Shown piece after piece: positions 8,735-32,962 of a stretch of DNA of 64,000 bases (positions are counted from its first letter, which is position 1; every line of letters begins with the position of its first letter). Under the pieces are notes generated by a model. The model was not told the origin of the DNA, did not search any database, and saw only the letters and a list, made by a program, of their open reading frames with translations. The stretch is from a virus, in the IMG/VR virus record IMGVR_UViG_3300034061_005520, positions 1-64,000 of that record; one strand, given 5' to 3'. A program made the translations under genes and the position numbers.

Positions 8735-8742
8735 GGTGTATA
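8735..8742 (+). promoter_or_regulatory. GGTGTATA element
   Basis: GGTGTATA lies 11 bases after the upstream stop and 21 bases before the ATG at 8764. It is followed by AATTACAC, so GTGTA and TACAC form a small dyad. It is one of nine intergenic copies in the window and is interpreted as a phage-specific promoter core. Confidence 0.5.
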
Positions 8743-8763
8743 ATTACACTAAGGAGATACTAC

Positions 8764-9414
8764 ATGCCTATTCCAAAACCAGAGAACAACGAAGACGAAC
8801 AGAAATTTCTTTCTCGTTGCATGAGTGATGAAGCTATGAAAAAGGACTATGATGACTCTAAACAAAGAGTAGCTGTTTGTCTAGGTCAAACCAAAGCCTC
8901 TCTTGTAGAACAGGTATGCGAAATACTAGAACACGATCCTGATGTTGAGCTATTAACGGAGAGTAATGCTTATTTTCCAGCCGATAATGAATATATGGAT
9001 GTTGGAGAAGCTTCTGAAGAATATATATTACCAATAATAGCTAGATATATTTATATGGATCCTTTAACGCAAGAACTTTATTATTTTCAAAACCCTGGAA
9101 TAAAGAAAAAAGACGGCAGAGTTCTAGTTTTTATGTCTCAAGGATCAGAATATCAAGGCAGAAAGGTTCAACTCAATAAACCCTTTAGAACCCCTGACGG
9201 TCCTAAAAAATTCAGCGTTTATGTAAAGAACGATAAGGGGAATGTTGTAAAGGTAAATTTTGGTGATCCAGAGCGATCTATAAAAAGAGATAGTCCTGAA
9301 CGTCGTAAAAATTTTCGAGCCAGACACGGATGTGATAATCCTGGTCCAAGATATAAGGCCAAATATTGGTCCTGCAAATTTTGGTCAAATAAAAAAGTAT
9401 CCGATTTAACCTAA
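8764..9414 (+). CDS. Conserved phage protein with MPIPKP N-terminus and RARHxCDNPGP C-terminal motif
   Basis: The product is 216 residues. ATG 8764 is chosen because AAGGAGA at 8751-8757 precedes it; an upstream TTG would include the promoter element. The N-terminus (MPIPKPENNEDEQKFLSRCM, then QRVAVC) and the C-terminus (KKFSVYVKNDKGNVVKV, IKRDSPERRKNFRARH, YWSCKFW) are both recurrent in large marine and freshwater phages, where I recall them in head-associated or structural contexts, but I cannot name a function. Cys and His in the C-terminal part could bind metal. It is cytoplasmic, with no membrane segment. Confidence 0.65.
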   Translation: MPIPKPENNEDEQKFLSRCMSDEAMKKDYDDSKQRVAVCLGQTKASLVEQVCEILEHDPDVELLTESNAYFPADNEYMDVGEASEEYILPIIARYIYMDPLTQELYYFQNPGIKKKDGRVLVFMSQGSEYQGRKVQLNKPFRTPDGPKKFSVYVKNDKGNVVKVNFGDPERSIKRDSPERRKNFRARHGCDNPGPRYKAKYWSCKFWSNKKVSDLT

Positions 9415-9441
9415 ATATAATTTTGGAGATCCTATTTTTAT

Positions 9442-9449
9442 GGTGTATT
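9442..9449 (+). promoter_or_regulatory. GGTGTATT element
   Basis: It lies 27 bases past the upstream stop and 22 bases before the start of the GIY-YIG gene. TGGTG here and CACCA just before the start codon form an inverted repeat, so an RNA hairpin could also form over the ribosome-binding site. Confidence 0.4.
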
Positions 9450-9471
9450 TCTCTTATGGAGCATCACCATT

Positions 9472-10212
9472 ATGTACTACGTATACGCACTATACAAGAA
9501 AAACACAAAGTATAAAACTGGTTTTTTGGAAGAAAATTTATTTTATATAGGAATTTCTTCTTCAGATAAAAATTTCTATTTTAGAATGCAGAATCATCAA
9601 AAAGAAAAGAGCAACCCCTATAAGCTGAATACAATTGCAAAGTATGATTTTTTTGTTAAAGTTCTTTGGCAAATCAAGACTAAAGAGGAGGCAGAGAGTA
9701 GAGAAGAATTCTTAATAAGATGGTTTGGAAGAAAAGTCAATAAAACCGGATTCTTAACCAATATTTTATCTAGCTCAACTGACTATTCTTATATACATAA
9801 AAAAAGAACAAAATCTACTAGAAATAAAATATCAAAAGCCCTTAAGAGAATAAACAAAGATAAAAATAAAATTATTGCCAATAGAGATAGAAACTTAACG
9901 ATTCCATATAATAGAGTTATAGAATTAATAGAAGATTGGGCAACCAACCCCCTAGAAACACAACAGGATTTTGCAACAAGACATAGTATTAACAGGTCAA
10001 AATTTAAAGATTGGTTGAGACTATATAAACCAGAATATATTGGATTAACAAAACAAAAACAATTAGAAATTTTTAATCGGGTCTACGACAAAAATAAAAC
10101 TCCTAAAAGAATCATAGAAGACTATGCTAAAATAAGTGGATATGATCATAGTAAAGCTAAAGCAGTGTACTATAGACTACTTAAAACCATTCAAAAAGAA
10201 AACAATAGTTAA
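9472..10212 (+). CDS. GIY-YIG family endonuclease, free-standing
   Basis: The 246-residue basic protein begins YYVYALYKKN and continues LFYIGISSSDKNFYFRMQNHQ, which fits the GIY-YIG fold (VYA in place of GIY, then YIG) with an Arg and an HxxE-like segment downstream. EAESREEFLIRWF supplies the conserved Glu. The C-terminal half is Lys-rich and helical, with a likely helix-turn-helix DNA-binding part (DFATRHSINRSKFKDWL). Free-standing homing endonucleases of this type are common in large phages. GGAG at 9458-9461 precedes the ATG. It may be selfish rather than useful to the phage. Confidence 0.75.
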   Translation: MYYVYALYKKNTKYKTGFLEENLFYIGISSSDKNFYFRMQNHQKEKSNPYKLNTIAKYDFFVKVLWQIKTKEEAESREEFLIRWFGRKVNKTGFLTNILSSSTDYSYIHKKRTKSTRNKISKALKRINKDKNKIIANRDRNLTIPYNRVIELIEDWATNPLETQQDFATRHSINRSKFKDWLRLYKPEYIGLTKQKQLEIFNRVYDKNKTPKRIIEDYAKISGYDHSKAKAVYYRLLKTIQKENNS

Positions 10213-10258
10213 CAACCATAAAATAATTTCTGAACTGAACCAATAAAAAGGATCAAAC

Positions 10259-10726
10259 ATGTCACGATTTAATGAAATACTGAACAATATCAAGCAATAC
10301 TTTTCTTCTGCTGAAGAATCTGAAGACTTTATGTCTATGGAAGAAATAGAAACAACAGAACAAGAAATGATGGAATATAAGAAAGACTTCTATGAAATGA
10401 GTGTTGGGTCGATCAGGGCGATTATGAATCATAGCAAATCTATTCTCGATTCTTTAGAAAACCCAACGGTGCGAGACAACCTAACAGAAAGCTGGCTACA
10501 AGGGAAAATAGCCATAACAGAAGACTATATGAGAACTATACATGATTTTATTATGTATGTTTCTGAAGCTCAACACAATGTAGCAAAGAAAGATCTTCCG
10601 GGATTATGGGAGAATATTCGTAAAAAGAAGCAAAGAGAAGGAAAGAAATATAAGCCAGCTAAACGAGGAGATAAGGATAGGCCCGACCCAGACCAGTGGA
10701 ACAAGTTGACAAAGAAGACTAGTTGA
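10259..10726 (+). CDS. Conserved phage protein, 155 aa
   Basis: The product is acidic and helical in its first half and strongly basic at its end, with GLWENIRKKKQREGKKYK and a GDKDRPDPDQW tail that recur in unassigned phage proteins. A helical segment around residues 60-110 could form a coiled coil. An AAGGATC site precedes the start. The function is unknown, although the Lys-rich LWENIRKK tail is typical of virion-associated or DNA-contacting small proteins. Confidence 0.6.
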   Translation: MSRFNEILNNIKQYFSSAEESEDFMSMEEIETTEQEMMEYKKDFYEMSVGSIRAIMNHSKSILDSLENPTVRDNLTESWLQGKIAITEDYMRTIHDFIMYVSEAQHNVAKKDLPGLWENIRKKKQREGKKYKPAKRGDKDRPDPDQWNKLTKKTS

Positions 10727-10760
10727 CTTTTGGAATACATCAGGTATTCTCACTAAAGTC
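10723..10760 (+). promoter_or_regulatory. Sigma70-like promoter with nested dyad before the sigma-factor gene
   Basis: TTGACT at 10723-10728, a 16-base spacer and TATTCT at 10745-10750. The same bases form nested inverted repeats: GACTTT (10725-10730) pairs with AAAGTC (10755-10760), and GAATAC (10733-10738) with GTATTC (10744-10749). The dyad over the core promoter could be an operator or an RNA hairpin at the 5' end. A leader of about 70 bases follows before the sigma gene, with no other feature seen in it. Confidence 0.5.
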
Positions 10761-10825
10761 TGAGTCGCCCACGGTCGATTCAAGACATAAGGACACAAAC
10801 CCCAAGGATTACACAAAGGAAACCA

Positions 10826-11473
10826 ATGCTATTACAGATTAATGGAATCGGCGATCAAAAAATCGAATACAAAGACCACAACACCATAAAGTTTGACGAT
10901 CTAAAAACTTATATACTACTAGCAAAAAAGGCCATATCTAAGTTTGGTCCAAAATTTTATAGTGGACTATCAGCAAAAATGCTTAAGGACGAGGACGCGG
11001 TATCCTCAATAGCTAATGCTATCATGATGGCGGATTGGAGATGGGATGATAATAGGCTTGGACTAAATGGAGCAAAGAAAACCAAGTACTCTTACAGAAA
11101 TCAGTGTGCTTTGTGGGCCATAAAAACATATGTTTCAAAGGAACATAAGCACACCAAGAGAACAAAGGCTTATTCTCTAGATTATGTAACAGATGAAAAT
11201 GATAGCGGCTATCATTCACTGTCTGCCGATGCTAGATGTGAGCAACCCGATGATATAGCTATGAAAAATGAAGAATCAGAAAATTTATCATCTCTTATAG
11301 AACAGCTTCTTTCACTAAATAGTTTGACAGATAAACAAAAAGACTATATCAAATTATATTACTTTGAATCTTATACATTCGAACAAATTGGAAGCAAGTA
11401 CGGGGTCACTAGAGAGGCTGTCAGACAAGGCCTAAATAAAGCCCTCGACACAATCAGAGGAGTTCTAACTTGA
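10826..11473 (+). CDS. Phage RNA polymerase sigma factor (sigma70 family)
   Basis: The product is 215 residues. The middle part (ADWRWDDNRLG, then SYRNQCALWAIKTYV) resembles the core-binding and -10-recognition helices of sigma region 2. The C-terminus LTDKQKDYIKLYYFESYTFE, then QIGSKYGVTREAVRQGLNKAL, is a clear sigma region 4 helix-turn-helix. Regions 1.1 and 3 are missing, as in small phage and ECF-like sigmas. It would redirect host RNA polymerase to phage promoters; the GGTGTATA elements in this window are the obvious candidate targets (inference). It is preceded by a sigma70-like promoter, consistent with expression by the unmodified host enzyme. Confidence 0.85.
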   Translation: MLLQINGIGDQKIEYKDHNTIKFDDLKTYILLAKKAISKFGPKFYSGLSAKMLKDEDAVSSIANAIMMADWRWDDNRLGLNGAKKTKYSYRNQCALWAIKTYVSKEHKHTKRTKAYSLDYVTDENDSGYHSLSADARCEQPDDIAMKNEESENLSSLIEQLLSLNSLTDKQKDYIKLYYFESYTFEQIGSKYGVTREAVRQGLNKALDTIRGVLT

Positions 11474-11859
11474 GCAAATTTAATATAGATGCCTACTGTG
11501 TGGCTATCACAACAAACTTAGAAGAAAATAAGACGTATATTCTCTCTACAACAGAAAACTCAATAGAGTTTCCAGTGCTAGAAATTGATACTAAGAATGC
11601 TAACTCTATAGATAATAGCCTGATAGACCACATGCGAAAGTTTTTAATGACCAGTCAGTTTGAGTTAAGTCCTCAAATAGTCTCTGCTAACTCAACAATA
11701 ATTAAACCAAGAAAAAAGAATACAATTAATTTAGTTTATTCTTTCCTAATAAAAGAAAACGTTAAGAATTTTGATTCGCACTGGATCAGTTTTAATTTCC
11801 AGAATCCTTCAACAGAGTATGCTGGCTTAATTTTTGAGGTTATACAAAAGCTAAAATGA
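11470..11859 (+). CDS. Hypothetical protein, 129 aa
   Basis: It starts at TTG 11470 in a TTGA overlap with the sigma-factor stop; no in-frame ATG is available until far into the protein, and the overlap supports translational coupling. The product has mixed alpha/beta content and no cysteine pairs or membrane segments. Coupling to the sigma factor makes a regulatory partner (anti-sigma or co-activator) possible, but no residue shows this. Confidence 0.55.
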   Translation: MSKFNIDAYCVAITTNLEENKTYILSTTENSIEFPVLEIDTKNANSIDNSLIDHMRKFLMTSQFELSPQIVSANSTIIKPRKKNTINLVYSFLIKENVKNFDSHWISFNFQNPSTEYAGLIFEVIQKLK

Positions 11860-12263
11860 ATATATTCTCATCTCTTAAAAACTTATTTATCAATAAAAGT
11901 TCTACTGCCGAACCACAAACAACAAAGCAGTCAGACAAAAACAGTATAACTTTTTCTATTGATGGTTTTGGTAGGTCATGGGTTGCTTTGGAACTAAATA
12001 ATAAGGATACAAAGTCCTGTGAGGATTTTGCTAAGATGCTATTTGATATCAATAATAGTAATTATGAACAAGCTACCCTCGATTTGATAGTTAGTTTGTC
12101 AAAGCAGAAACCATTAATGGCACCAACACTAGAAACTATTCTTATCTCTTGGGGCATGATGTTGGCCACAGGACCAATTAATGACGAGCATAAAGTGGCT
12201 AAAAATACTGAGAATAGGCCTTTTATACGCCCAAGAAATGTTTTTCTTGGTACGGATAAATAG
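11856..12263 (+). CDS. Hypothetical protein, 135 aa
   Basis: The ATG at 11856 overlaps the upstream stop in an ATGA arrangement. The N-terminus MNIFSSLKNLFINKSS is amphipathic, a linker follows, then a compact domain with ITFSIDGFGRSWVALEL and a helical C-terminus. It is the third gene of the sigma-factor transcript. No family is recognised. A 74-base gap follows with no recognised signal. Confidence 0.55.
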   Translation: MNIFSSLKNLFINKSSTAEPQTTKQSDKNSITFSIDGFGRSWVALELNNKDTKSCEDFAKMLFDINNSNYEQATLDLIVSLSKQKPLMAPTLETILISWGMMLATGPINDEHKVAKNTENRPFIRPRNVFLGTDK

Positions 12264-12337
12264 ACTCCTACTATAACAATAGCCTTGCGGGGTATATTGA
12301 TAGTAGTAATTCTCGTGTATTCTTCTTAAGAAACTAT

Positions 12338-12787
12338 ATGACATCAAAAAAACCACTAATAGTTTGGCAAAAATGGATTGATCCTTTTGGCAAGGATACC
12401 GATCAAAGCCGATGGACAGACTACGATAACGAGAGTCTCGATATAGACTTGTATAGAAATCAAGACTCCGATACCGAAGATCAACCAATACCAAAGCAGG
12501 CTGGGGAAAGTATTAAAGTTATAGCTTCTCCTATGGGTATTATTCCATATAATGAACACACCGCTTCTGGAAAGATCTTTAATTTCTGGACAGGCCACAC
12601 CAACTTTGATATTACCAAAGAAATCATAGATATATTAGAGAGCGTTGATGGTGTTGAAACCTTAGATGTATTTACTAGATATAGATTTAGAATCGCCACA
12701 GGCAAATGCTTCGATGACGCATTGGTTATGAATGCTATAAATAAGACCGTATATAAATTCTTAGATAATAAATATGAATACCCATAA
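12338..12787 (+). CDS. Conserved phage protein with SPMGIIPYNEH motif
   Basis: The product is 149 residues. The second half (VIASPMGIIPYNEH, FNFWTGHTNF, VDGVETLDVFTRYRFRI) is a pattern I recall from unassigned proteins of large phages, and looks like a small alpha/beta domain. The first half is acidic and low in complexity. It overlaps the ClpP-like gene by 14 bases, so the two are coupled. The function is unknown. Confidence 0.6.
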   Translation: MTSKKPLIVWQKWIDPFGKDTDQSRWTDYDNESLDIDLYRNQDSDTEDQPIPKQAGESIKVIASPMGIIPYNEHTASGKIFNFWTGHTNFDITKEIIDILESVDGVETLDVFTRYRFRIATGKCFDDALVMNAINKTVYKFLDNKYEYP

Positions 12788-14122: not shown

Positions 14123-14123
14123 T

Positions 14124-14131
14124 GGTGTATC
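14124..14131 (+). promoter_or_regulatory. GGTGTATC element
   Basis: It starts one base after the upstream stop codon and 45 bases before ATG 14177. A weak TTGACT-N17-TATAGA pair (14137-14165) lies just downstream, so this gap may hold two overlapping promoters for the structural gene that follows. Confidence 0.5.
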
Positions 14132-14176
14132 AAATATTGACTATTTAACCAAACTAATATATAGAGGGTTTAAACT

Positions 14177-15001
14177 ATGCCAACTCTTACTGGCCCATCA
14201 AGCACATCACAAGATATCACAATGGCCTCTGCTGGGGCCGACACACTAACATATACAACAGTTGCTTCTGGATCAATGCTTCCGGAAACCATGCAGCTAT
14301 TTGTTGATGGAGTAGAAGCAGCTGGAGTCACACTACCAGCAAAATATATCGGTCAATCCTTTACCTTTACTAAAGTTGGCGGATCACCCCTTTCTGGTGT
14401 TTTCGCTTCCGGCGTTGTAAACTTAGTATCATCAGGCACAACAACCACTCCAACAACAGCCGCCCCAGCAACAACAGCGGGCAGTGTTTATTATATCAGT
14501 GGTAATAAAGCAACAAATGATGGTGGCACAATCAAAGCTGGCGGCAACATTGCTGATGCACGAGTAGAATCCGCTGACAAAGTCTATGGTGGCGAAAGAC
14601 AAGTTGTTGGCTCGGTCGTTGTTGATGGAGTTAACACAGACAAGGGCGTAAGCTCTGGTGTTTTTGCATATAACAACCAGTCACCAGTTGGTAAGAAGGT
14701 CACCGTAACTCTTGGCGGCGTTAGCAACACCGTACTAAGAAGCGGCGCTGCTCAGCCACAACTTGTTCAAAGCATTAACAAGCTTAATGTTCTAAGAACA
14801 AGACGCTTCACCACAGCCATAAGAGAGAACAAATACAACAAATATACTGGTCGTTTCGAGGCTGGATATCCTGTTGTAGCAGTCGATACTCTTGCAACAG
14901 ATAATGCTGCTAATCCAACAAGAACACTCCCCGGTCAACTAGTTTACAAGATCGGAGCAAATGTTCCTGTAACATCAGATTATAAGGCAAAGACCAACTA
15001 A
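14177..15001 (+). CDS. Probable virion structural protein with Thr/Ala/Pro linker
   Basis: The 274-residue product has two beta-rich parts separated by a TTTTPTTAAPATTAGS linker near residues 92-107. The C-terminal part is Gly/Val/Asn-rich with SINKLNVLRTRRFTTAIRENKYNKYTGRFEAGYPV, typical of a surface-exposed virion protein. It opens the tail-fibre region, stands alone between a GGTGTAT element and a stem-loop, and has an AGAGGG ribosome-binding site. A high-copy structural product is inferred from that monocistronic layout. No family is named. Confidence 0.6.
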   Translation: MPTLTGPSSTSQDITMASAGADTLTYTTVASGSMLPETMQLFVDGVEAAGVTLPAKYIGQSFTFTKVGGSPLSGVFASGVVNLVSSGTTTTPTTAAPATTAGSVYYISGNKATNDGGTIKAGGNIADARVESADKVYGGERQVVGSVVVDGVNTDKGVSSGVFAYNNQSPVGKKVTVTLGGVSNTVLRSGAAQPQLVQSINKLNVLRTRRFTTAIRENKYNKYTGRFEAGYPVVAVDTLATDNAANPTRTLPGQLVYKIGANVPVTSDYKAKTN

Positions 15002-15033
15002 TTAATATAACGTAATAATTAACGATACAACTA

Positions 15034-15416: not shown

Positions 15417-15821
15417 ATGGCAGCTAGCAAATACGACTTCTCTATAGAACAGGGTTCCTCTTTTAGACTATCCATAGTCCATCGTAACGATTCTGGTAAT
15501 CCTATAAATATGACAGGATATTGTGCTAGGGTAATATGGAAAACCAGCAGCGGTGAAAGTATGATATTTAGCTCGGAAAATACAAATTATTCACAATATA
15601 AGTTTACTATTGATCCTCTAAACGGGAAAATAACACTACTTATCCCCGCTGGTGTCACAAATAATTATGCTTTTAGCAATGCTAAATATGATCTAGAAAT
15701 ACAAACACCGCAAGACCTTTATCTTGGGGGTGGAAAAAATGTTGAAAGAGTTCTTTATGGCACAGTTACAATACTAAAACGATTTAGCCAATCAACAGAA
15801 CAACTGAGCTGCTCAACATGA
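15417..15821 (+). CDS. Tail-fibre-associated baseplate-type protein, 134 aa
   Basis: The N-terminus YDFSIEQGSSFRLSIVHRND and then PINMTGYCARVIWKT is a pattern common in small beta-rich proteins encoded just before phage tail fibres. The whole product is predicted beta. It overlaps the 867-residue fibre gene by four bases (ATGA), supporting a joint function such as fibre attachment. Confidence 0.6.
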   Translation: MAASKYDFSIEQGSSFRLSIVHRNDSGNPINMTGYCARVIWKTSSGESMIFSSENTNYSQYKFTIDPLNGKITLLIPAGVTNNYAFSNAKYDLEIQTPQDLYLGGGKNVERVLYGTVTILKRFSQSTEQLSCST

Positions 15822-18421
15822 GTATATTTACTGTTGAAATTTCTCCATCCCAGGTTACCAGCGTTGAAATAGAAACGACGGTGGGACAAAATCCATCTAA
15901 TATAGATATTATAACTTCTTCAGCTGTTAATTTAGAGATAACCAATAGTGTTGCTTTACTACCATCAGATTTTAATTCTAATATAGACTCTAGACTATTC
16001 TCTGTTATTAATGCTGGATCCGGAATAGATATAGAATATGATATTAATCAGCCATCAATAACAATATCCTCTACCGGAGACTATGCTAATAAAACTCATA
16101 GCCATAATCCAGAAGATATAAACAATTTATCTACATTTATAAATAATAATATATCATCTACAATAAGTGGTCTACAAAGTCAAATTGATAATAAACAGCC
16201 GGTAGGTAACTATGCCACTTTAATTAATGGATTGATACCTCCGTCTCAACTACCAAGTTATGTTGACGATATCCTAGAATATAATAATTTATCATCTTTT
16301 CCTATAAGCGGTGAGAGTGGTAAAATTTATGTATCTTTAGATAATAGTAAAGTCTATCGTTGGGGTGGTACAGGATACATAGAGATTAGTGCTTCACCAG
16401 GATCATCAGACTCTGTACCAGAAGGCAATACTAATAAGTATTATACAGATGCTAGGGCAAGCGCAGCAGCACCAGTACAAAGCGTATCCGGCAAGACTGG
16501 TGCGGTCACACTCAATAAAAACGACGTTAATCTAGGTAATGTTGACAACACTAGCGATGCTAACAAGCCCATTAGCACAGCGGTTCAAACTGCACTAGAC
16601 AGCAAACAGCCCGCTGGGAATTATGCTGCTGCTACCCATAACCACGCTATCAGCGAAGTAAGTGGATTGCAGACCGGTCTAGACAGCAAAGCTCCTCTTG
16701 CTAATCCCACGTTTACCGGTACTGTGAATGGCATAACCAAAAGCATGGTTGGCCTAGGCAATGTTGATAACACTAGCGATACCAATAAGCCGGTTAGCAC
16801 ATCACAGCAAAGTGCTTTAGATCTTAAGGCTCCACTTGCTAGCCCAACTTTTACTGGCACTGTTAACGGTATAACTAAAAGCATGGTCGGTTTAGGCAAT
16901 GTTGATAACATCAGCGATATAAATAAACCAGTTAGTGTTCCACAGGCTTCAGCAGATGCGGCTGTACAAGCAAACGCCGCCATAGACGCCTCAACAAAAG
17001 CAAACTCTGCTCAAGCACATTCTATACAAAGAGCCAATCATACTGGTACCCAAGATATTGCCACAATTAATGGCTTACAAACAGCACTAGATAATAAAGC
17101 TGCTCTGGCTCATGGCCACAACATATCAGATATAAGTAATCTGCAGAATACACTAGACAATAAACAACCTGTTGGTAATTATGCTACATTGATTAATGGG
17201 CTTGTACCAGCGGTTCAATTACCAAGCTATATAGATGATGTTTTAGAGTACTTAAACCTCTCCACATTTCCTGTCGTTGGCGAAACTGGAAAAATTTATA
17301 TATCCTTGGATAACAATAAAACATACCGTTGGGGTGGAAGCTCGTACATAGAGATTACTGCTTCCCCAGGTAGTACGGATAGCATAGCAGAAGGCGGTGT
17401 CAATAAATACTATACCGACGCCAGAGCTAGTGCTGCTGCTCCCGTACAAAGCGTGGCTGGTAAAATCGGTAATATTAGTCTAGTCAAAAATGATGTTGGA
17501 TTAGGCAACGTTGACAACACCAGTGACGCTAACAAGCCAGTTAGCACAGCACAGCAAAGTGCTTTAGACCTTAAAGCTCCTCTTGCTAACCCGACCTTTA
17601 CGGGAACTGTGGCTGGCATTACCAAAAGCATGGTTGGTCTAGGTAGTGTCGATAACACTAGCGATGCTAATAAACCAATCAGTAGTGCGACCCAAACAGC
17701 ATTAGACCTTAAGTCTTCAGTTGGGCATAATCATACATATTCTGACATTTCTAACTTCAATACTGGCGTAGAGTCAATTGTTAGCACATCATTAATAGCT
17801 GGTAGTAATATAGTTTTAACTTATAATACATCAGCAGACACCCTAAGTATATCAACTTCTGGTTTGCAGCCAGCCGGAAATTATGCCAATGCCACACATA
17901 CCCACATTATTGATAATATTACTGGACTACAAACTGCTCTAGACAATAAACAAGCCACTGGCGACTATGCAACTAATACCGATATTAGCAACCTACAAAC
18001 ACAGATAAATAATAAACAAGCATCTGGTGACTACTCTTTAGTTGGCCATCAGCATATTAGTACAGATATTAGCGATTTTGAAAATAGGGTGGTTTCTATT
18101 GTTGCAACAGGAGTACCACTTGAGTATTTGGCAACGTCCGTGTTGGTTCATGATGATCCCATCGATATTACTGGTGATTTTAGTAGCATCACAAAAGAAT
18201 ACGTATATATTTTTAAAGATAGTGCTGTGGGATACAAACTAATATTACCAACTGCGATTAATAACAAAGCTCAATATACTCTTAAAAATAAGACATCAGA
18301 TACCATATATTTATATCCACATTCATCTCAAACGATAGACGGTTATGATTCTATAGGTCTTAACAGAATGGATATGTCTATATCTGTGATTAGCGATGGG
18401 TCGAACTGGATTATGGTGTAA
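15818..18421 (+). CDS. Tail fibre protein with repeated GLGNVDNTSD modules
   Basis: The product is 867 residues. It contains at least five copies of the fibre motif LGNVDNTSDANKPVS followed by QSALDLKAPLANPTFTGTV, typical of T4-like and prophage long tail fibres. A larger block (PSYVDDILEY... to YTDARASAAAPVQSV) occurs twice, near bases 16240-16490 and 17210-17450. HSHNPEDI and HNHAIS segments resemble metal-binding fibre knots. The C-terminal 100 residues form a non-repetitive domain, probably the receptor-binding tip or a chaperone-type end. Confidence 0.85.
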   Translation: MSIFTVEISPSQVTSVEIETTVGQNPSNIDIITSSAVNLEITNSVALLPSDFNSNIDSRLFSVINAGSGIDIEYDINQPSITISSTGDYANKTHSHNPEDINNLSTFINNNISSTISGLQSQIDNKQPVGNYATLINGLIPPSQLPSYVDDILEYNNLSSFPISGESGKIYVSLDNSKVYRWGGTGYIEISASPGSSDSVPEGNTNKYYTDARASAAAPVQSVSGKTGAVTLNKNDVNLGNVDNTSDANKPISTAVQTALDSKQPAGNYAAATHNHAISEVSGLQTGLDSKAPLANPTFTGTVNGITKSMVGLGNVDNTSDTNKPVSTSQQSALDLKAPLASPTFTGTVNGITKSMVGLGNVDNISDINKPVSVPQASADAAVQANAAIDASTKANSAQAHSIQRANHTGTQDIATINGLQTALDNKAALAHGHNISDISNLQNTLDNKQPVGNYATLINGLVPAVQLPSYIDDVLEYLNLSTFPVVGETGKIYISLDNNKTYRWGGSSYIEITASPGSTDSIAEGGVNKYYTDARASAAAPVQSVAGKIGNISLVKNDVGLGNVDNTSDANKPVSTAQQSALDLKAPLANPTFTGTVAGITKSMVGLGSVDNTSDANKPISSATQTALDLKSSVGHNHTYSDISNFNTGVESIVSTSLIAGSNIVLTYNTSADTLSISTSGLQPAGNYANATHTHIIDNITGLQTALDNKQATGDYATNTDISNLQTQINNKQASGDYSLVGHQHISTDISDFENRVVSIVATGVPLEYLATSVLVHDDPIDITGDFSSITKEYVYIFKDSAVGYKLILPTAINNKAQYTLKNKTSDTIYLYPHSSQTIDGYDSIGLNRMDMSISVISDGSNWIMV

Positions 18422-18423: not shown

Positions 18424-18431
18424 GGTGTATA
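18424..18431 (+). promoter_or_regulatory. GGTGTATA element
   Basis: It begins two bases after the tail-fibre stop and 31 bases before ATG 18463. A second GGTGTAA lies ten bases upstream, across the end of the fibre gene. Confidence 0.5.
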
Positions 18432-18462: not shown

Positions 18463-18792
18463 ATGACCTATTTTCCACAAAATCAAAACGGCCAAGCTAA
18501 CAATAGCAATAGTTCTCCCGTAACTATTAGTAGTGATCAAATTGGCGCTAATCAATTAGCCTCGGAAGAAGCAAATATTCTTTTGAGACGAATAGTTAAA
18601 CTATTAGAAAGTAATGCGGTAGTTGACAGTGCAAATAGACAAAGAGTTACGATAGAAGGTATATCTGGTACTGCAAATCTTGGCAACTTAAGCAACGTCA
18701 CTACTATTTCTAATATGGATCATAGACAATTTATAGATATTTCTCGCAACACATATGCAAACTGTATTCGCAGCAAACTTAATTTTTCTTAA
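18463..18792 (+). CDS. Small virion-type protein, 109 aa
   Basis: The N-terminal third is Asn/Ser/Gln-rich and low in complexity; a helix follows (ASEEANILLRRIVKLLES), then a beta-rich end with NLGNLSNVTTI and NMDHRQFIDISRNTYANCIR. This layout is seen in small phage proteins encoded between fibre genes. It precedes the next large structural gene by 20 bases. The function is unknown. Confidence 0.55.
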   Translation: MTYFPQNQNGQANNSNSSPVTISSDQIGANQLASEEANILLRRIVKLLESNAVVDSANRQRVTIEGISGTANLGNLSNVTTISNMDHRQFIDISRNTYANCIRSKLNFS

Positions 18793-21423: not shown

Positions 21424-21431
21424 GGTGTAAA
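21424..21431 (+). promoter_or_regulatory. GGTGTAAA element (near-match)
   Basis: One mismatch from the GGTGTATA form, seven bases after the upstream stop and 35 bases before ATG 21467. ATTTTTACC at 21441-21449 can pair imperfectly with it, so a weak hairpin is also possible. Confidence 0.35.
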
Positions 21432-21466: not shown

Positions 21467-22711
21467 ATGACCCAAATTAAAATTTCACAATTACCAGTTG
21501 GTGTTGCAGAAAATGACGCTGTTGTTCCGGCCACAAATGCTGCTGGTACTCAAACAAACAAAATAAAACTAACAGACATAGTTAATTTGCCTCATAATCA
21601 TGATAATAGATATTATACTGAAGCCGAGATAAACTCAATATTATCAAATTATGCTGTTCTTGGTAGCAACGGTTCTTTAACATTACCCAACGGTAGTATA
21701 CTAAGTGAAACAAATAATGCTGTTGCACTATCACCACCCACAGCAGTCGCTGGACAAAGCTTAGTAATTCGTCCAACCGCAGCTATTTGGGCAATCAGTT
21801 CTAGTAATTATATTGAATATGGTAATCCCATCACAATTGTAGTTACTTTACAAAACTGGGCTTATTTTGGAACAGTAAACTATACAATCTCTGGTCCTGG
21901 AGTTACCCCACAATCATTGGGTCGAGCACTAACTGGTAAACTAACTTTCGTAAGTACAACCGGTCCAGACGCAGAAAGTATTACTTGGACTATACCAGCT
22001 AATAGCAATATCTCTGAATTTACTCTAACATTAACAAGTGTGGATGGAACAAGATCAACCAATTATCAGACACAAAATGATCCAACACTATATTATAATT
22101 TTGAAGAATCTAATGGTATGCCAACTGGTCAATTTGTTACTGTAACTAATAATGGGATATCTAGTTCAGAACATAGTCATGTTCATCTTATCTCAGGAGA
22201 TCCTTCAACGGTTGATATTTATTTAGGAGATGATGATCAATATGTTAAGATTGAAAAAAATGGTGGAGATGTTATTGTTGGTACAGACAATAATAATAAT
22301 CACTGGACTTTTGGTACAGATGGTAGGTTAACACTACCAATAGACGGTGACATCCTAGACAGTAACGGAACATCCGTATTGGGCGGTTCAACAACCGTTA
22401 TTAGTTCATCATACTCTTCAACAATAAACACCGACGCCGCTACTGGTGACATATTCGATATAACCCTTACAGGCAACACCACACTAGCCAACCCAACCAA
22501 TCCCGTTAACGGTAAAACACTCCGCTGGAGAATCTCCCAAGACTCTACTGGCGGCAGAACCATCACTCTGGGCAACAAATTTAACATTCCTAGCAGCGCC
22601 ACCTCACCACTACCTTGGAGTACAGCAGCGAATAAGATGGACATTTTAGCTGCCACATATCATGCTGGAAGAGACAAATGGGATGTAATTGCTTTTGTTC
22701 CCGGCTACTAA
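21467..22711 (+). CDS. Tail fibre / tail tip protein, 414 aa
   Basis: The N-terminus TQIKISQLPVGVAENDAVVP is a common phage fibre attachment-type start. It is followed by HNHDNRYYTEAEINSIL, a middle immunoglobulin-like region, and HWTFGTDGRLTLPIDGDI plus SSYSSTINTDAATGDIFDI, patterns that recur in cyanophage and freshwater phage fibres. The last 100 residues form a beta end domain. It is probably a fibre or adhesin; the receptor is unknown. Confidence 0.72.
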   Translation: MTQIKISQLPVGVAENDAVVPATNAAGTQTNKIKLTDIVNLPHNHDNRYYTEAEINSILSNYAVLGSNGSLTLPNGSILSETNNAVALSPPTAVAGQSLVIRPTAAIWAISSSNYIEYGNPITIVVTLQNWAYFGTVNYTISGPGVTPQSLGRALTGKLTFVSTTGPDAESITWTIPANSNISEFTLTLTSVDGTRSTNYQTQNDPTLYYNFEESNGMPTGQFVTVTNNGISSSEHSHVHLISGDPSTVDIYLGDDDQYVKIEKNGGDVIVGTDNNNNHWTFGTDGRLTLPIDGDILDSNGTSVLGGSTTVISSSYSSTINTDAATGDIFDITLTGNTTLANPTNPVNGKTLRWRISQDSTGGRTITLGNKFNIPSSATSPLPWSTAANKMDILAATYHAGRDKWDVIAFVPGY

Positions 22712-26023: not shown

Positions 26024-26031
26024 GGTGTATA
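26024..26031 (+). promoter_or_regulatory. GGTGTATA element
   Basis: It starts two bases after the protease stop and 45 bases before ATG 26077. The rest of the gap is AT-rich with an AAAAGG ribosome site. Confidence 0.5.
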
Positions 26032-26076: not shown

Positions 26077-26289
26077 ATGGCCAATAATATTCAAAAGGCT
26101 GTTTCTGCCAACCAAATTAAAAACGGAACATCTGTTGTTTCAACTACTGCCACAGGTAATAGTTCACTATTAAACACCTATGTGAAAAACACACCAGATA
26201 TGCCTTCTATTGAAACAAAATATAGCAATAGATTTACTAATGGCATATTGGTTACTCTAGTTGATGGCGGCTCTATAGTTGCACCATAA
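26077..26289 (+). CDS. Hypothetical protein, 70 aa
   Basis: The small Ser/Thr/Asn-rich protein has no membrane segment and no cysteine. It ends RFTNGILVTLVDGGSIVAP. It directly follows a GGTGTATA element and lies 21 bases before a holin-like gene. It may be a small virion component; nothing more can be said. Confidence 0.55.
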   Translation: MANNIQKAVSANQIKNGTSVVSTTATGNSSLLNTYVKNTPDMPSIETKYSNRFTNGILVTLVDGGSIVAP

Positions 26290-26636: not shown

Positions 26637-26644
26637 GGTGTATA
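26637..26644 (+). promoter_or_regulatory. GGTGTATA element
   Basis: It is 14 bases after the holin-like stop and 23 bases before ATG 26668, with AGGAG at 26655-26659 in between. The layout is the same as at the other copies. Confidence 0.5.
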
Positions 26645-26667: not shown

Positions 26668-27090
26668 ATGACCACATCTATTCAAAATCAGATACTTAGT
26701 ATAGAACTCTCTTCTTCGTTAGAAGCACTAATTGATAAAGTTAAAAAGTCTCTATCTGGCTCAAAGTCTGTGGCTATGTCTCAGGCTTGGGGAATATTAC
26801 AGATCGCTATAGCAGAAACAATAAAGATCATAGAGACATCAAACCCGTCATTAAAGGGGTCTAATAAAAAGACTATAGCATTAGCCATGCTTAGTATGTT
26901 TTATGATAAGGTATTTTTAGTTGTAACCGTCCCCTATGTTCCAGTTGTACTACAGCCTATTATAAGTAAATATACAAAAGCTCTTTTGATGTTGCTCGTG
27001 AGTTCAGCTATAGACTCTATGGTTGAAATTTTTAGAAAGAGCGGAATTTTTACAGATCCAAATAGTGTACCAGAGGTCTCAGACAAATAA
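26668..27090 (+). CDS. Membrane-associated helical protein, 140 aa
   Basis: The start is ATG 26668, eight bases after AGGAG; an in-frame GTG further upstream lies inside the GGTGTATA element. The product is all-helical with a hydrophobic stretch near residues 80-115 (VFLVVTVPYVPVVLQ and ALLMLLVSSAI). It may be an integral or peripheral membrane protein of the lysis cluster. No family is recognised. Confidence 0.55.
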   Translation: MTTSIQNQILSIELSSSLEALIDKVKKSLSGSKSVAMSQAWGILQIAIAETIKIIETSNPSLKGSNKKTIALAMLSMFYDKVFLVVTVPYVPVVLQPIISKYTKALLMLLVSSAIDSMVEIFRKSGIFTDPNSVPEVSDK

Positions 27091-27101
27091 GAGGAAACGC
27101 C

Positions 27102-27485: not shown

Positions 27486-27985
27486 CTTTGAATACAAAAA
27501 ATTTAGTATTGGTCGTTGGTGCGATACTAATAATTATTGGTCTAATTAAACCAGACCTCTCAAACCTATTAGTTCTGCCCAACAGACCCGTAGCAATAGA
27601 TGTTCTAGAGCTACCAGCCCCAACAGAAGCCAATCTTAAAAAAGAGGCAGAAGAAGTAGTATCTCTATTAAAGTCTTATAGTGCTGCTAAGTCAGACCTC
27701 AAGAGATTGAGAGATCTAATGTTGGATTTGGGCAGACTAGTGGAGTTGGATGGTGAGGATACTGTTATTAAAAATACCGAAGAAATTCGTCAGGCTAATA
27801 GTTTGTCGGGGGTTATGTTGCGTTTAGATATTAAGGGTAAATATCCCGACTTGGCTAAAGAGTCCAAAGAGGTGGTTGTGGCTGCTGTTGGTGATGATAA
27901 TATTAATCTATCACCAGAATTAAGAGTAAAAGCTGTAGAAGGTTTTAATGCTCTTGCGTGGGCATATAATGAGGCTAGTAAATAA
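27482..27985 (+). CDS. Membrane-anchored helical protein, 167 aa
   Basis: ATG 27482 sits in an ATGA overlap with the preceding gene. An N-terminal hydrophobic helix (LVLVVGAILIIIGLI, residues 8-22) is followed by a long charged helical region (KKEAEEVVSLLKSYSAAKSD and onward) consistent with a coiled coil. It may span the envelope together with the gene before it. It ends in a TAATG overlap with the papain-like protease gene, so the three are translated as a unit. Confidence 0.55.
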   Translation: MTLNTKNLVLVVGAILIIIGLIKPDLSNLLVLPNRPVAIDVLELPAPTEANLKKEAEEVVSLLKSYSAAKSDLKRLRDLMLDLGRLVELDGEDTVIKNTEEIRQANSLSGVMLRLDIKGKYPDLAKESKEVVVAAVGDDNINLSPELRVKAVEGFNALAWAYNEASK

Positions 27986-28911
27986 TGCCAAGACTAACAC
28001 CCCAAGAATGGTATAATAAATATAGACAGGGATACGAAGGCGCATTGTGGAATCAAAAAGAGTTTGACCACTTGATGGAAACTTTAAAGTATCCATTGTT
28101 TGGTGATGCTAGTAAAAGAATTACTAATACTGGAAAAAACAAATTAAGCCTACCATACAAATCTGTATATCAGTTTGATAAAAAACCATACGAAGAAAGA
28201 CAAGTTACTGGGGATTGCGTAAGCCATGGAACGAGAAACGCCTGCGACATTAGCAGAGCTGTAGAAATACATGTTGGGGGAGAAAGAGAAGCATGGATAG
28301 CGAGAGGTGCTACTGAAGCAATCTATGGTAGTAGAGGATGGAGTGGCGAAGGCATGACCGGCAGTAAGGCTGCTGAGTTTGTTAGTAAAATTGGCGGTAT
28401 TCTTGTTAGACAAAATTATAAGGGCGTTGTGGATCTAACTAAATATAATGGTATGCTGGGAGCTGGTTGGGGCGGTCGAGGCGTTCCAGATGCGGTAATA
28501 GATCTGGCTAATGACCACCAAATTAAAACAGCTTCGTTGGTAAGAACAGTAGAAGAAGCTCGCGACGCCCTAGCTAATGGATATGGAATAGCTGTTTGTT
28601 CTAATTATGGCTTTAGTAATAAGAGAGATAGCAAGGGCTACTCTAGAACTAGCGGAAGTTGGGCTCATTGTATGGCTTTTATTGCTTGTGACGACACCAA
28701 AGGTGATACAAGCTTTTTAGTACAAAATAGCTGGGGTAAATGGAATGATGGTGGACATCCAGAGTGGGGTCCAATACCAGACGGCTCTTTCCTAATCCAT
28801 TCTGATGTGGCCGAAGGCATGTTGAAACAAAACGGGTCATACTCATTCTCTAGTTTCAACGGCTTTCCTCTGCAAAAACTACCAGACTACGGTTTTGATA
28901 GCTATCTATAA
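27985..28911 (+). CDS. Papain-like cysteine protease (C1 family)
   Basis: The 308-residue product has QVTGDCVSHG with the oxyanion Gln73 and nucleophile Cys78, SGSWAHCMAF with His228, and FLVQNSWGKWNDGG with Asn248. This is the full papain Q-C-H-N set in the right order and spacing. About 70 residues precede the domain, with no signal peptide. It is coupled to small membrane-protein genes, and no lysozyme, amidase or transglycosylase domain is seen in the window, so a role in breaking a proteinaceous envelope at lysis or entry is an attractive inference. A virion-borne peptidase is the alternative. Confidence 0.82.
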   Translation: MPRLTPQEWYNKYRQGYEGALWNQKEFDHLMETLKYPLFGDASKRITNTGKNKLSLPYKSVYQFDKKPYEERQVTGDCVSHGTRNACDISRAVEIHVGGEREAWIARGATEAIYGSRGWSGEGMTGSKAAEFVSKIGGILVRQNYKGVVDLTKYNGMLGAGWGGRGVPDAVIDLANDHQIKTASLVRTVEEARDALANGYGIAVCSNYGFSNKRDSKGYSRTSGSWAHCMAFIACDDTKGDTSFLVQNSWGKWNDGGHPEWGPIPDGSFLIHSDVAEGMLKQNGSYSFSSFNGFPLQKLPDYGFDSYL

Positions 28912-28915
28912 AATC

Positions 28916-28923
28916 GGTGTATC
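28916..28923 (+). promoter_or_regulatory. GGTGTATC element
   Basis: It lies four bases after the protease stop and 40 bases before ATG 28964. A CCTTTT/AAAAGG mini-hairpin follows in the leader. Confidence 0.5.
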
Positions 28924-28963
28924 TAAATATTATTAGAGAAGTCCTTTTTAAAAGGGTTGACCG

Positions 28964-29140
28964 ATGAGACTTATTGATAAAATCGCTTTAAATAGGCTAA
29001 TTTCTATTATAGCCGATCTTGTAATTCGTTTAGCTAAAATTTTTGCGGATAAATCACCCGTAAACAATCCCTCTAAACCCGTTAGACCAAAACCTCTTAA
29101 GAGATTAATAGATATTGTTCCACTCCCTTGGAGAAAATAA
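28964..29140 (+). CDS. Small basic amphipathic protein, 58 aa
   Basis: A short frame between larger genes, starting behind a GGTGTAT element and ending with a one-base overlap (TAATG) with the next gene. The N-terminal half is an amphipathic helix (MRLIDKIALNRLISIIADLV) and the C-terminal half is Pro/Lys-rich (KPVRPKPLKRL). It may be a membrane-active peptide or an accessory lysis protein; no family is known to me. Confidence 0.5.
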   Translation: MRLIDKIALNRLISIIADLVIRLAKIFADKSPVNNPSKPVRPKPLKRLIDIVPLPWRK

Positions 29141-29430
29141 TGAATAAATTAATTTCTGGTTTGGTAATTTATACTATGTTATTTGGTTCATCTTATTATG
29201 GATCAACAACAGCAGTAGTAACTTTATCTGGCGCCATAATCAAAGCAAAAAGCATTGAGAATACAAAAAAATACAAAAGAAAAGACTGCCCAGTTTGCAA
29301 AGGCAAAGGTTGGTATATGAGCGGAGACAACATTAAAAAAGTTGACTGCGGATATTGCGAACCAGAAGAAGGTGCGAGTCAGTCGGAGTGCGAAGATGGT
29401 CAGTGCAAAACCAAGGTGAGTAAAAAATAA
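29140..29430 (+). CDS. Membrane protein with DnaJ-type CxxCxGxG zinc knuckle, 96 aa
   Basis: ATG 29140 overlaps the previous stop by one base. A hydrophobic N-terminus (about residues 4-30) acts as a signal or anchor. The soluble tail has CPVCKGKGWYMSG and, 16 residues on, CGYCEPEEG, which is half of a DnaJ-type zinc finger, then another Cys pair near the end. It probably binds one zinc ion or forms disulfides outside the membrane. The function is unknown. Confidence 0.6.
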   Translation: MNKLISGLVIYTMLFGSSYYGSTTAVVTLSGAIIKAKSIENTKKYKRKDCPVCKGKGWYMSGDNIKKVDCGYCEPEEGASQSECEDGQCKTKVSKK

Positions 29431-29432
29431 TT

Positions 29433-29840
29433 ATGCATAAGCCAAATAAACAAGACTCTGAGAAACTAGAGGCGATAGCTAAAAAGGTTCTGGTAGACGC
29501 GGGTTTGGCTGGTGATGAAAAATTTGGTAGTGTAATAGCTATACTAATGATTATTAGTGTTATTTTGACCTCTATTCGTATATTACAGGAATGCAATAAA
29601 AATAGAACTCAGTATATGACACATGACGAAAAATGTGCAGCATACGGAGAAGAGATAAAAGAATTTAGCAATAAAAGAGGCTGGTTCACTCGCCTAAGAA
29701 TAAAAAGAGTACTAAAGAGAGAAATGACCAAAGAAGAGTACGAACAATACGGATTTAAGCTTATAGAATCAATATTAAGTATAGGAGAAACCCTCACGGA
29801 CGATGAAATTAAAACCTTAGTGGAGAATGCAAATGTTTAA
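29433..29840 (+). CDS. Single-pass membrane protein, 135 aa
   Basis: A charged N-terminal helix (about 30 residues) leads into one hydrophobic segment (SVIAILMIISVILTSIRIL, residues 33-51), then a basic helical region and an acidic end. It belongs to the run of small membrane proteins from 26.3 to 30.1 kb and starts two bases after the zinc-knuckle gene. No function is recognised. Confidence 0.5.
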   Translation: MHKPNKQDSEKLEAIAKKVLVDAGLAGDEKFGSVIAILMIISVILTSIRILQECNKNRTQYMTHDEKCAAYGEEIKEFSNKRGWFTRLRIKRVLKREMTKEEYEQYGFKLIESILSIGETLTDDEIKTLVENANV

Positions 29841-30081
29841 TATTTTAGTATGGTGTGTTTATGGTTTATTTGTTGGTTCCATAGCCAAAAGCTTGGTGCC
29901 GGGCGATGAGAATTTCAATATGACCAAAACAATTGCCCTAGGGGTTGCTGGCTCATATATGGGCGGCGCTGTTTTATATCTATTAGGAACATACCAAAGT
30001 CTTAGTCCAGCTGGTATTTTTATGGGAGTTGCTGGCGGCGTATTAAGTTTGCTCCTATATAATAAACTTGTCTCCAAGTAA
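29833..30081 (+). CDS. GlsB/YeaQ/YmgE-family small membrane protein
   Basis: The 82-residue product has three hydrophobic segments with conserved glycines: GLFVGSIAKSLVPG, then ALGVAGSYMGGAVLYLLG, then GIFMGVAGGVLSLLLY. This matches the transglycosylase-associated (YeaQ/YmgE) family of bacterial membrane proteins. ATG 29833 is seven bases after GGAG; ATG 29827 is too close to it. The role of the family is unclear; in this cluster a membrane-perturbing role is possible. Confidence 0.65.
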   Translation: MFNILVWCVYGLFVGSIAKSLVPGDENFNMTKTIALGVAGSYMGGAVLYLLGTYQSLSPAGIFMGVAGGVLSLLLYNKLVSK

Positions 30082-30090
30082 AATACACGC

Positions 30091-30118
30091 TTGACTACGA
30101 ACTGATCCTTGATACAAT
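30091..30118 (+). promoter_or_regulatory. Sigma70-like promoter with dyad before dCMP deaminase
   Basis: TTGACT at 30091-30096, a 16-base spacer and TACAAT at 30113-30118, each five of six to consensus. GATCC at 30104-30108 and GGATC at 30122-30126 form an inverted repeat around the -10 element, which could be an operator. The ATG at 30127 leaves almost no leader. Confidence 0.55.
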
Positions 30119-30126
30119 AAGGGATC

Positions 30127-30603
30127 ATGAAGCACCAACGACCACAATGGACTGACTATTTCTTGGGATTGGCCAAGGTTGTATCTCAACGTAGCCACGA
30201 TATACACACAAAACACGGCTGCGTAATTACTGACCAGAATCATAGAATTCTTGGTGTGGGATACAATGGATTTCCAAGAGGATTGGACGATGAAAAATTA
30301 CCAACATCTAGGCCAGAAAAATATCCATGGATGGTACACTCTGAAAGAAACGCATTATCTAATTGCGTAGTTAGGCCGGATAATGGAATTGCTTATGTAA
30401 CCGGTCAATGCTGTAATGATTGCATTATGGCTCTTTGGCAAGAGGGCGTGGGTACTGTTTATATGATAGATGATCATGGAACTCACTTATTTGATTCTGA
30501 TGCACAGCAAAGATTTGATACTTTTGTTACCATGAGTGGTATAAAAATATTCAAAGTCAATCCGGATCTTTCGTGGTTGAAAGATTTGTCTGGTGTAATA
30601 TGA
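30127..30603 (+). CDS. dCMP deaminase
   Basis: The 158-residue product has the deaminase zinc site: HSERNAL (His71, catalytic Glu73) and GQCCNDC (Cys96, Cys99), with VGYNGFPRG and the N-terminal RSHDIHTKHG typical of deoxycytidylate deaminases. It converts dCMP to dUMP for dTTP synthesis. It heads a group with ribonucleotide reductase, consistent with raising deoxynucleotide supply early in infection. Confidence 0.9.
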   Translation: MKHQRPQWTDYFLGLAKVVSQRSHDIHTKHGCVITDQNHRILGVGYNGFPRGLDDEKLPTSRPEKYPWMVHSERNALSNCVVRPDNGIAYVTGQCCNDCIMALWQEGVGTVYMIDDHGTHLFDSDAQQRFDTFVTMSGIKIFKVNPDLSWLKDLSGVI

Positions 30604-30734
30604 CAATATGTTTTTATATATCTATTGGTTTATATGTATATGCGCTTATTTATAATGATCGCACAATGCAAGAAAATAGTTTTCGTGCGATAATAGTGCT
30701 AGGTTTACTTTCAATAATTTTAAACAGGAGATGA
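30600..30734 (+). CDS. Small membrane protein, 44 aa
   Basis: A short frame linking dCMP deaminase and RNR by an ATGA overlap on its left and a one-base gap on its right. It encodes two hydrophobic segments (CFYISIGLYVYALIY and IIVLGLLSIIL) around a short polar loop. Its exact fit between coupled genes argues that it is translated. The function is unknown. Confidence 0.5.
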   Translation: MTICFYISIGLYVYALIYNDRTMQENSFRAIIVLGLLSIILNRR

Positions 30735-30735
30735 G

Positions 30736-32928
30736 ATGTCTGCTCTACAAGAACTACAGAATTATACATTTGTTAGTAAATATGCCAGATGGATCGAAGA
30801 CAAGAATCGTAGAGAGACATGGAAAGAAGCGGTTGAGCGCGTCAAAAACATGATGCATTCTAAGTATGATTCCTACGGGATTTCGGAAGAAATCAACTGG
30901 GCATACGATATGATGTATAAGAAGAAGGTTCTAGGTAGTCAAAGAGCGCTACAGTTTGGCGGAGATCCCATTCTAAAGAGACACGCCAAGATCTATAATT
31001 GCACAAGTTCATACTGTGACAGGTTGAGGTTTTTTCAGGAATGTTTTTGGCTACTGCTCTGCGGGAGCGGGACGGGCTTTAGCGTACAAAAACACCATGT
31101 CGCCAAGCTGCCAACACTAGAACATGAAGTAGAGCAGGATATCGGTACAAAATACGTTATAGAAGATAGTATAGAAGGCTGGGCGGACGCTTTGGGAGTT
31201 CTGCTAAGTTCTTACTTTAGTAAGCCAGTAGACGAGTTTAAAGAATACAAAAATTGCCACATTGTTTTTGATTACTCAAATATTAGAACTAAGGGGTCTT
31301 CGTTAAGTTCTGGCGTTGGTAAAGCCCCAGGCTTTGAACCGCTGCAAAAGGGTCTAGAAAAAATTCGAGCCTTATTAGACAGATGCGTGGCCAATGGTCA
31401 AAAAAGACTTCGACCAATTGATGCATATGATATCGTAATGCATAGTAGCGATGCTGTTCTATCTGGCGGTGTACGCAGAAGCGCATCCTTGGCTCTCTTT
31501 AGTCCTGATGATGAAGAAATGGCCAAGGCCAAGACCGGAAACTGGTATGTAGAAAATCCGCAAAGGGCAAGAAGTAACAACTCGGCCCTACTTCTTAAGA
31601 ATGAGACTACGTTCGAAGAATTTAATACTCTCATGCAATCTGTGAAAGAGTTTGGCGAGCCAGGATTTATTTGGAGCGAATCAACAGAAATGATTTTTAA
31701 TCCATGCGTAGAAATAGGCATGTGGCCAATTGATGAACAAACCGGAAAAAGTGGTTGGCAGGGCTGTAACCTATCGACTATTAATTGCTCTAGCGTTGTT
31801 GACGAAGAAGACTTTTATGAGAGATGCAAGGCAGCAGCCATTATCGGCACTTTACAAGCTGGTTTTACTAAGCTAGACTATCTTGGCAAGATTAGTGAAA
31901 ATATTTTTAATAGAGAAGCACTGCTTGGTGTTTCGCTAACCGGCACTATGGAAAAGCACGATTTGGTATTATCCGAAAACGTATTAACCAAGGGTGCAAA
32001 AATTGCCGTAGACACCAATAAGCAAATATCCAAAAAGATTAGTATTAATCAAGCCGCTAGAGTGACCTGTTTAAAGCCAGAGGGTACTAGTAGTAGTATG
32101 TTGGGTACAAGCTCGGGTATCCACCCACACCACGCTAAACGCTATATCAGGCACGTACAGGCGAACGTTTTAGAAGCACCATACCAACACTTCAAGAAAC
32201 TAAACCCGCAAGCCTGCGAAAAATCCTCGTGGTCGGCCAATAATACAGACGAAGTAATCAAGTTTCCTATTGAGGTTCCGGACGGGGCAAAATTAAAGAA
32301 TCAATTACCAGCAGTAGAGATGCTACAGGTGGTAAAGGAAACACAAAAAAATTGGGTTAATTCTGGTAAAAATAGAGCACTGTGTACTCAAGAGTATTTG
32401 AGTCATAATGTTAGCAATACTGTTACGGTTAAACCGGATGAGTGGGACGATGTAACAAGATACATCTATGATAATAGAAAGTATTTTGCTGGCATATCGC
32501 TTATTCCACAAAGCGGTGATAAGGATTATCCACAAGCCCCATTCACTACCGTTTATACTAGTAGAGAAATTGTAAAAGAATATGGTGATGCGGCTCTGTG
32601 GTGTTCTGGTCTAATAGAGTTAGGACTAAATGCTTTTAACAATAACCTTTGGGCCGCTTGTGACTATATTATTATGTCTCAGAACAAGATTGATGACGAA
32701 GAAAATAAGTTATTATTCTTAACCAAGATGAGAAGGTTCGCAAGTAAGTACTTTGAGGACGACCTTAAGAGACTAACCTATTGCATGAAGGACGTTTATA
32801 ATTGGAAAATATATTGTGATTTATTTGATAGTTTTAAGAAGGTTGATTATACGCAGCTTTCTGAAACAGAAGATAATACGGCCGGAATAGAAGAGGTTAG
32901 CTGCGCTGGAGGGGCATGTTTACTATAA
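30736..32928 (+). CDS. Adenosylcobalamin-dependent (class II) ribonucleotide reductase, monomeric type
   Basis: The 730-residue product matches the RtpR-like monomeric class II enzymes in length and landmarks: YNCTSS and GCNLSTINC with the active-site Cys pair, FNPCVEIGM with the thiyl-radical Cys (about residue 323), and a C-terminal CAGGAC (Cys723 and Cys728) that shuttles electrons, like the C-x4-C tail of the Lactobacillus enzyme. It reduces ribonucleotides (triphosphates in the monomeric class) without oxygen, using vitamin B12. No R2 or NrdD/NrdG gene is present. It implies a host that makes or imports cobalamin. Confidence 0.92.
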   Translation: MSALQELQNYTFVSKYARWIEDKNRRETWKEAVERVKNMMHSKYDSYGISEEINWAYDMMYKKKVLGSQRALQFGGDPILKRHAKIYNCTSSYCDRLRFFQECFWLLLCGSGTGFSVQKHHVAKLPTLEHEVEQDIGTKYVIEDSIEGWADALGVLLSSYFSKPVDEFKEYKNCHIVFDYSNIRTKGSSLSSGVGKAPGFEPLQKGLEKIRALLDRCVANGQKRLRPIDAYDIVMHSSDAVLSGGVRRSASLALFSPDDEEMAKAKTGNWYVENPQRARSNNSALLLKNETTFEEFNTLMQSVKEFGEPGFIWSESTEMIFNPCVEIGMWPIDEQTGKSGWQGCNLSTINCSSVVDEEDFYERCKAAAIIGTLQAGFTKLDYLGKISENIFNREALLGVSLTGTMEKHDLVLSENVLTKGAKIAVDTNKQISKKISINQAARVTCLKPEGTSSSMLGTSSGIHPHHAKRYIRHVQANVLEAPYQHFKKLNPQACEKSSWSANNTDEVIKFPIEVPDGAKLKNQLPAVEMLQVVKETQKNWVNSGKNRALCTQEYLSHNVSNTVTVKPDEWDDVTRYIYDNRKYFAGISLIPQSGDKDYPQAPFTTVYTSREIVKEYGDAALWCSGLIELGLNAFNNNLWAACDYIIMSQNKIDDEENKLLFLTKMRRFASKYFEDDLKRLTYCMKDVYNWKIYCDLFDSFKKVDYTQLSETEDNTAGIEEVSCAGGACLL

Positions 32929-32954
32929 ATATATCCATATATAAATGATTAAAG

Positions 32955-32962
32955 GGTGTATA
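32955..32962 (+). promoter_or_regulatory. GGTGTATA element
   Basis: It lies in the 82-base gap between RNR and phoH, 26 bases after the stop and 48 bases before the TTG start. ACACC at 33006-33010 is its inverted partner just before the start codon. The rest of the gap is AT-rich (about 20% GC) with no other recognised signal. Confidence 0.5.

Follow-up and report, generated by a model that had tools for sequence, protein, structure and literature searches.

The heptamer GGTGTAT recurs between genes of this phage sequence, which also encodes a small sigma70-family protein, and the question arises whether the two belong together as a promoter element and its reader. We analyzed a window of 64,000 nucleotides, comprising bases 1–64000 of a 152,676-base phage record (G000). 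The first-pass annotation had placed GGTGTAT at eight intergenic positions and a near-match at 21424; all eight copies were found on the plus strand, and the near-match reads GGTGTAA. The candidate promoter element GGTGTATA occurs at 8735–8742, 29 nt before gene 8764–9414 and with the SD 17 nt after its first G, at 18424–18431, 39 nt before gene 18463–18792 and accompanied by a second GGTGTA at 18415, at 26024–26031, 53 nt before gene 26077–26289 (present in 3 of 4 orthologs), at 26637–26644, 31 nt before gene 26668–27090, and at 32955–32962, 56 nt before the PhoH-like gene 33011–33739. The form GGTGTATC is seen at 14124–14131, 53 nt before gene 14177–15001, where all 5 orthologs in a six-contig set carry the motif, and at 28916–28923, 48 nt before a start at 28964 if that start is used. 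The remaining two are GGTGTATT at 9442–9449, 30 nt before the GIY-YIG gene 9472–10212, and the GGTGTAA variant at 21424–21430, 43 nt before gene 21467–22711. The GIY-YIG nuclease gene is without an ortholog in five relatives, yet possesses a GGTGTAT promoter of its own. The intergenic placement thus stands as described; by our measurement, 2–28 nt lie between stop and motif and 29–56 nt between motif and start.

The total number of copies in the window is ordinary (12 versus 7.3 expected, a count reached by 8 of 100 shuffles), but their placement is not. Intergenic sites on the coding strand that lie at most 100 nt upstream of a start make up 1.5% of all positions, and eight of the 12 copies are located there (p = 1.2e-12), which bears out the excess between genes originally proposed, and GGTGTAT ranks first among the upstream-enriched 7-mers of the window on the coding strand. 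The other four copies lie in sense orientation within genes (13237 and 50247) or in antisense (18998 and 57252).

We then turned to about 80 IMG/VR loci with orthologs of the sigma protein, which share 43–67% identity with it; the nearest contigs show 62–67% identity and the more distant ones reach down to 43–45%. With the thresholds applied, cultured phages gave no ortholog and only partial matches of 27–42% identity, and comparisons of sigma, capsid and terminase revealed no close relative in culture. In a sigma tree of 84 sequences split into seven groups, GGTGTAT, or the overlapping word TGGTGTA of that block, takes first or second rank among the upstream 7-mers in every group, and first rank in most. 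Six contigs together contain 38 upstream GGTGTAT copies versus 1.6 expected, again the top-ranking upstream 7-mer, and point variants of it are generally not enriched. Equal density inside genes or on the wrong strand had been named beforehand as evidence against a promoter, and neither is the case: the 80 nt upstream of starts in the relatives' contigs contain 205 copies in coding-strand orientation, compared with 3 in the opposite one. Large contigs lacking the sigma gene, for example one of 122 kb, were considered as controls and proved uninformative because they may be fragments.

The logo of these sites consists of a single block, tGGTGTA(T/A), in which GG is as invariant as TGTA. No conserved block that could represent a -35 box was seen in the motif flanks of this logo, and the bases following GGTGTA(T/A) are barely conserved, the -7 T position reaching only 0.43. 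Variants exist, as TGTGTA is enriched in clade V only (7/67 versus 7/519, p = 3e-4) and some members of clade VI have GGGGTA at the promoter of the 14177 type, in genomes that retain GGTGTA elsewhere. These variants do not cleanly track changes in the sigma factor. Co-evolution of motif and sigma specificity was considered and rejected, since all sigma clades retain GGTGTA and no clean switch of specificity was found. No published promoter with a GGTGTAT-type sequence turned up in the literature searched.

The position of the motif relative to the downstream signals points to its role. None of 200 sites lies 14–24 nt from the start codon, a gap that control words do occupy, and 41 lie at 25–35 nt; the distances span 25–75 nt and break off sharply at the lower end. 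The first base of the SD is always at least 14 nt from the first G, with a pile-up at 15–17. Because the transcript has to include the SD, it should begin at those sites at most about 15 nt past the first G, which puts the element into the -10 region. The same register emerges from three hybrid promoters (G000:106443, G001:24803 and G003:53464), in which 17 nt separate CTTGACA from a TAnnnT box and GGTGTA overlaps the -10 box in register, which would set the first G at about -16. A third estimate comes from phage phiEco32, whose gp36 holoenzyme initiates at middle and late promoters with one element, tAATGTAtA, and starts 6–8 bp downstream of it (PMC8948821); transferred to the present motif, this predicts a start 14–16 nt past the first G, which is compatible with the SD edge, the start-codon edge and the register of the hybrids. 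Designation of GGTGTA as a phage-specific -10-type promoter element is hence well supported at the sequence level.

Which genes such promoters would serve can be read from the whole record. Its 209 called genes lie on the plus strand at both ends and include a minus-strand structural block at 52–89 kb with a tape-measure-like gene, portal and terminase. The tape-measure-like protein (3634 aa, PhageMin_Tail) is encoded on the minus strand from window position 60390 to record position 71294. Gene 79241–80245 probably encodes the capsid protein, as it is strongly conserved and matches the major head protein of Bacillus phage G at 22%. Outside the window, GGTGTA(T/A) also precedes minus-strand genes, at 79158, 82232, 92053 and 113442, and plus-strand genes at 105983, 106463 and 119910. 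Of 57 distinct contigs, 50 have GGTGTA directly behind the terminator of the capsid gene, a terminator-like repeat GGCTGGCC...GCCGGCC followed by a T-run; in most of the other seven, AGTGTAT takes its place. The motif also precedes the gene next to the capsid gene on its upstream side (80718–82187) in 21 of 25 distinct upstream regions, the orthologs of 78585 in 9 of 10 cases and those of 14177 in 49 of 70. At the portal-end promoter (82232, minus strand), part of the conservation may stem from coding constraint; the site behind the capsid gene does not lie in coding sequence. These capsid and tail operons suggest late timing of the genes behind GGTGTA. The late regulon put forward in the first-pass annotation is supported by them, but its targets are not purely structural, as the GIY-YIG gene at 9472 and the PhoH-like gene at 33011 are included.

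Another type of promoter prevails in the early-type region at 94–131 kb of the record, where many small genes are preceded by CTTGACA-17-TAnnnT in place of GGTGTA. These sigma70-type promoters have a -35 box and keep the -7 T at 0.70 in the same genomes, and the two promoter classes mostly occupy different genome regions. In the early promoters at 94–131 kb, the word GCCGATA recurs within the spacer, and AGTGTAGAAT is found where the -10 box lies. Assignment of the phage to a Chitinophagia host was rejected, as it relied on one 5.5-kb contig in a MAG, possibly a binning artefact, and agrees poorly with the presence of SD sites and of promoters of the sigma70 type.

The sigma70-family protein (215 aa) is encoded at 10826–11473 on the plus strand and was already recognized as such from the open reading frame. 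Its region 4 (residues 164–211) is clear, with a PF04545 match at 2.9e-13; the helix-turn-helix is detected by PF04545 in 57 of 57 orthologs, and TIGR02937 scores above its cut-off. From residue 114 onward, regions 3.2 and 4 align to residues 503–604 of RpoD in hhalign, the region 3.2-like linker covering about residues 114–140. For region 2, no Pfam match was obtained in any of the 57 orthologs. The AlphaFold model (pLDDT 79) matches whole sigma chains over 190–245 columns, close to its entire length, with a probability of 1.00, but with low TM-scores and an rmsd of 12–20. A sigma2-like N-terminal domain (about residues 26–110) is thus predicted from this model and from a weak similarity to phiEco32 gp36, whose region 2 it resembles most among five sigmas compared. 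The sequence YxYRNQC is invariant in the predicted region 2 of the orthologs, a conservation that is biased because the peptide YSYRNQC was among the search patterns with which they were gathered. Each of four contigs tested harbors one region-4 gene above the family cut-off, and a search, run without a positive control, gave no match to a single-subunit RNA polymerase of the T7 type. In 24 loci inspected for autoregulation, the sigma gene is not preceded by GGTGTA.

Given that all sigma clades, down to 43–45% identity, carry the motif and that a single region-4 gene is present, the sigma factor is the likely reader of GGTGTA by co-inheritance and exclusion, in line with the link suggested at the outset. 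It is a link that we infer, since the motif has been passed on jointly with the genes for sigma, terminase and capsid through shared ancestry. We propose, with a probability of roughly 0.78, that a phage sigma holoenzyme in a lineage of large, uncultured tailed phages reads tGGTGTA(T/A) as a single -10-type element and drives post-early genes. The host core RNA polymerase together with the phage sigma would recognize this sequence without a -35 box and would start transcription about 14–16 nt downstream of the first G. Its targets would be the operon that runs into the capsid gene, the tail operon that starts immediately behind the terminator of that gene and accessory operons on the plus strand, whereas the early genes would be served by host sigma70 via CTTGACA-17-TAnnnT. 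Counterpoints to this proposal are that region 4 is present in the sigma although a -35 element was not seen, that sequence profiles do not detect region 2 and that the TGTGTA and GGGGTA variants do not follow sigma changes cleanly. It is conceivable, though less likely than not, that this sigma retains region 4 without recognizing a -35 element and contacts GGTGTA through an unusual region 2, that its specificity has stayed near-constant throughout a broad phage lineage, down to about 45% identity, and that the hybrids serve both phases.

The resemblance of GGTGTA to other promoter signals calls for a comparison with alternative explanations. TGTATA is similar to a TG-extended -10, early promoters likewise have GTGTA beside the -10 box, and the three hybrids exist, so that the motif might be the extended -10 of ordinary host sigma70 promoters for which a phage sigma is unneeded. 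Yet GG is as invariant as TGTA, the TG is displaced by one base from that of TGn, the -7 T amounts to 0.43 at GGTGTA sites versus 0.70 in the early promoters, which have a -35 box, and the two classes are mostly separated in the genome; we regard this explanation as quite improbable. Scarcely more probable is that GGTGTA is bound by another phage regulator that recruits the host holoenzyme, for which a D5-like protein encoded at 87760–88575 of the record would be an example. An activator site is normally located upstream of an intact -10, whereas GGTGTA itself lies in the -10 region and its flanks are devoid of another conserved block.

Strand specificity and proximity to start codons would also befit an RNA element in the leader, that is, a signal for processing, translation or stability in place of a promoter. 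The distances of 25–75 nt with their hard lower edge, the location directly after terminators and the register with sigma70 -10 boxes speak against it and make it very improbable. Chance or composition, to which the unremarkable total count in the window might point, is refuted by the placement of the copies, the strand bias and the conservation in dozens of diverged contigs, and its probability is negligible.

A phage sigma holoenzyme acting at GGTGTA would have its nearest counterpart in phiEco32. Both phages have a sigma of about 215 aa and a lone element at the -10 position without a -35 box, the TGTAtA core is common to both, and a promoter follows the capsid genes in phiEco32 too (AATGTAT at 9102, before gp13). 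Early genes are under host sigma70-type promoters in both, those of phiEco32 using host sigma70 (PMC8948821). However, TGTA is preceded by AA in the gp36 element and by GG here, so that the consensus tAATGTAtA is not matched; region 4, clear in the present sigma, is reported to be lacking in gp36; and the similarity to gp36 amounts to about 19% across 53 aa in region 2 and is not significant as a profile. The phage lineages are also separate. By the tests run, the system appears to work like that of phiEco32 gp36 but stands outside the gp36 family.

Phage 7-11 resembles our phage in that late genes are served by a phage sigma, gp47, whose C-terminal part is discussed as region-4-like, unlike gp36 (PMC8948821). 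The gp47 late promoters are bipartite, GTAAtg-16-aCTA, with elements 16 bp apart (PMC8948821). They thus differ in sequence and in having two elements from the single-element GGTGTA promoter. The late promoters of T4 (gp55/gp33/gp45) are single-element, and a single -10-type element for late genes is common to T4 and the phage described here. The sigma at 10826–11473 differs in having region 4 and its PHROG matches are to other sigma families, and the word enriched upstream of genes is not the T4 late consensus TATAAATA (PMC5587285) but GGTGTAT.

The proposed pair of GGTGTAT and sigma factor is a fresh example of a known strategy and not a new kind of system. It supplies a regulatory code that can be put to the test in a lineage of large phages that is widespread but yielded no close relative in culture by sigma, capsid or terminase. 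The late operons of this lineage would become readable from sequence alone, and sigma and promoter constitute a compact candidate orthogonal pair. If the proposal is true, single-element phage promoters are not restricted to sigma factors that lost region 4.

Several other features of the record were observed. The GGTGTA promoters at 105983 of the record and at 53444 of G003 directly follow a tRNA-3'-end-like sequence (GGTTCGAGTCC). Within the window, positions 15818–18421 encode a repetitive 867-aa protein with matches to many minor tail and tail-fibre families, and positions 30736–32928 a class II (adenosylcobalamin-dependent) ribonucleotide reductase. DNA polymerase III alpha is split at 42268–46624 into a gene with the PHP and an NTPase domain and separate finger, HHH and OB domains, and the two small genes between the parts possibly represent an inserted element.
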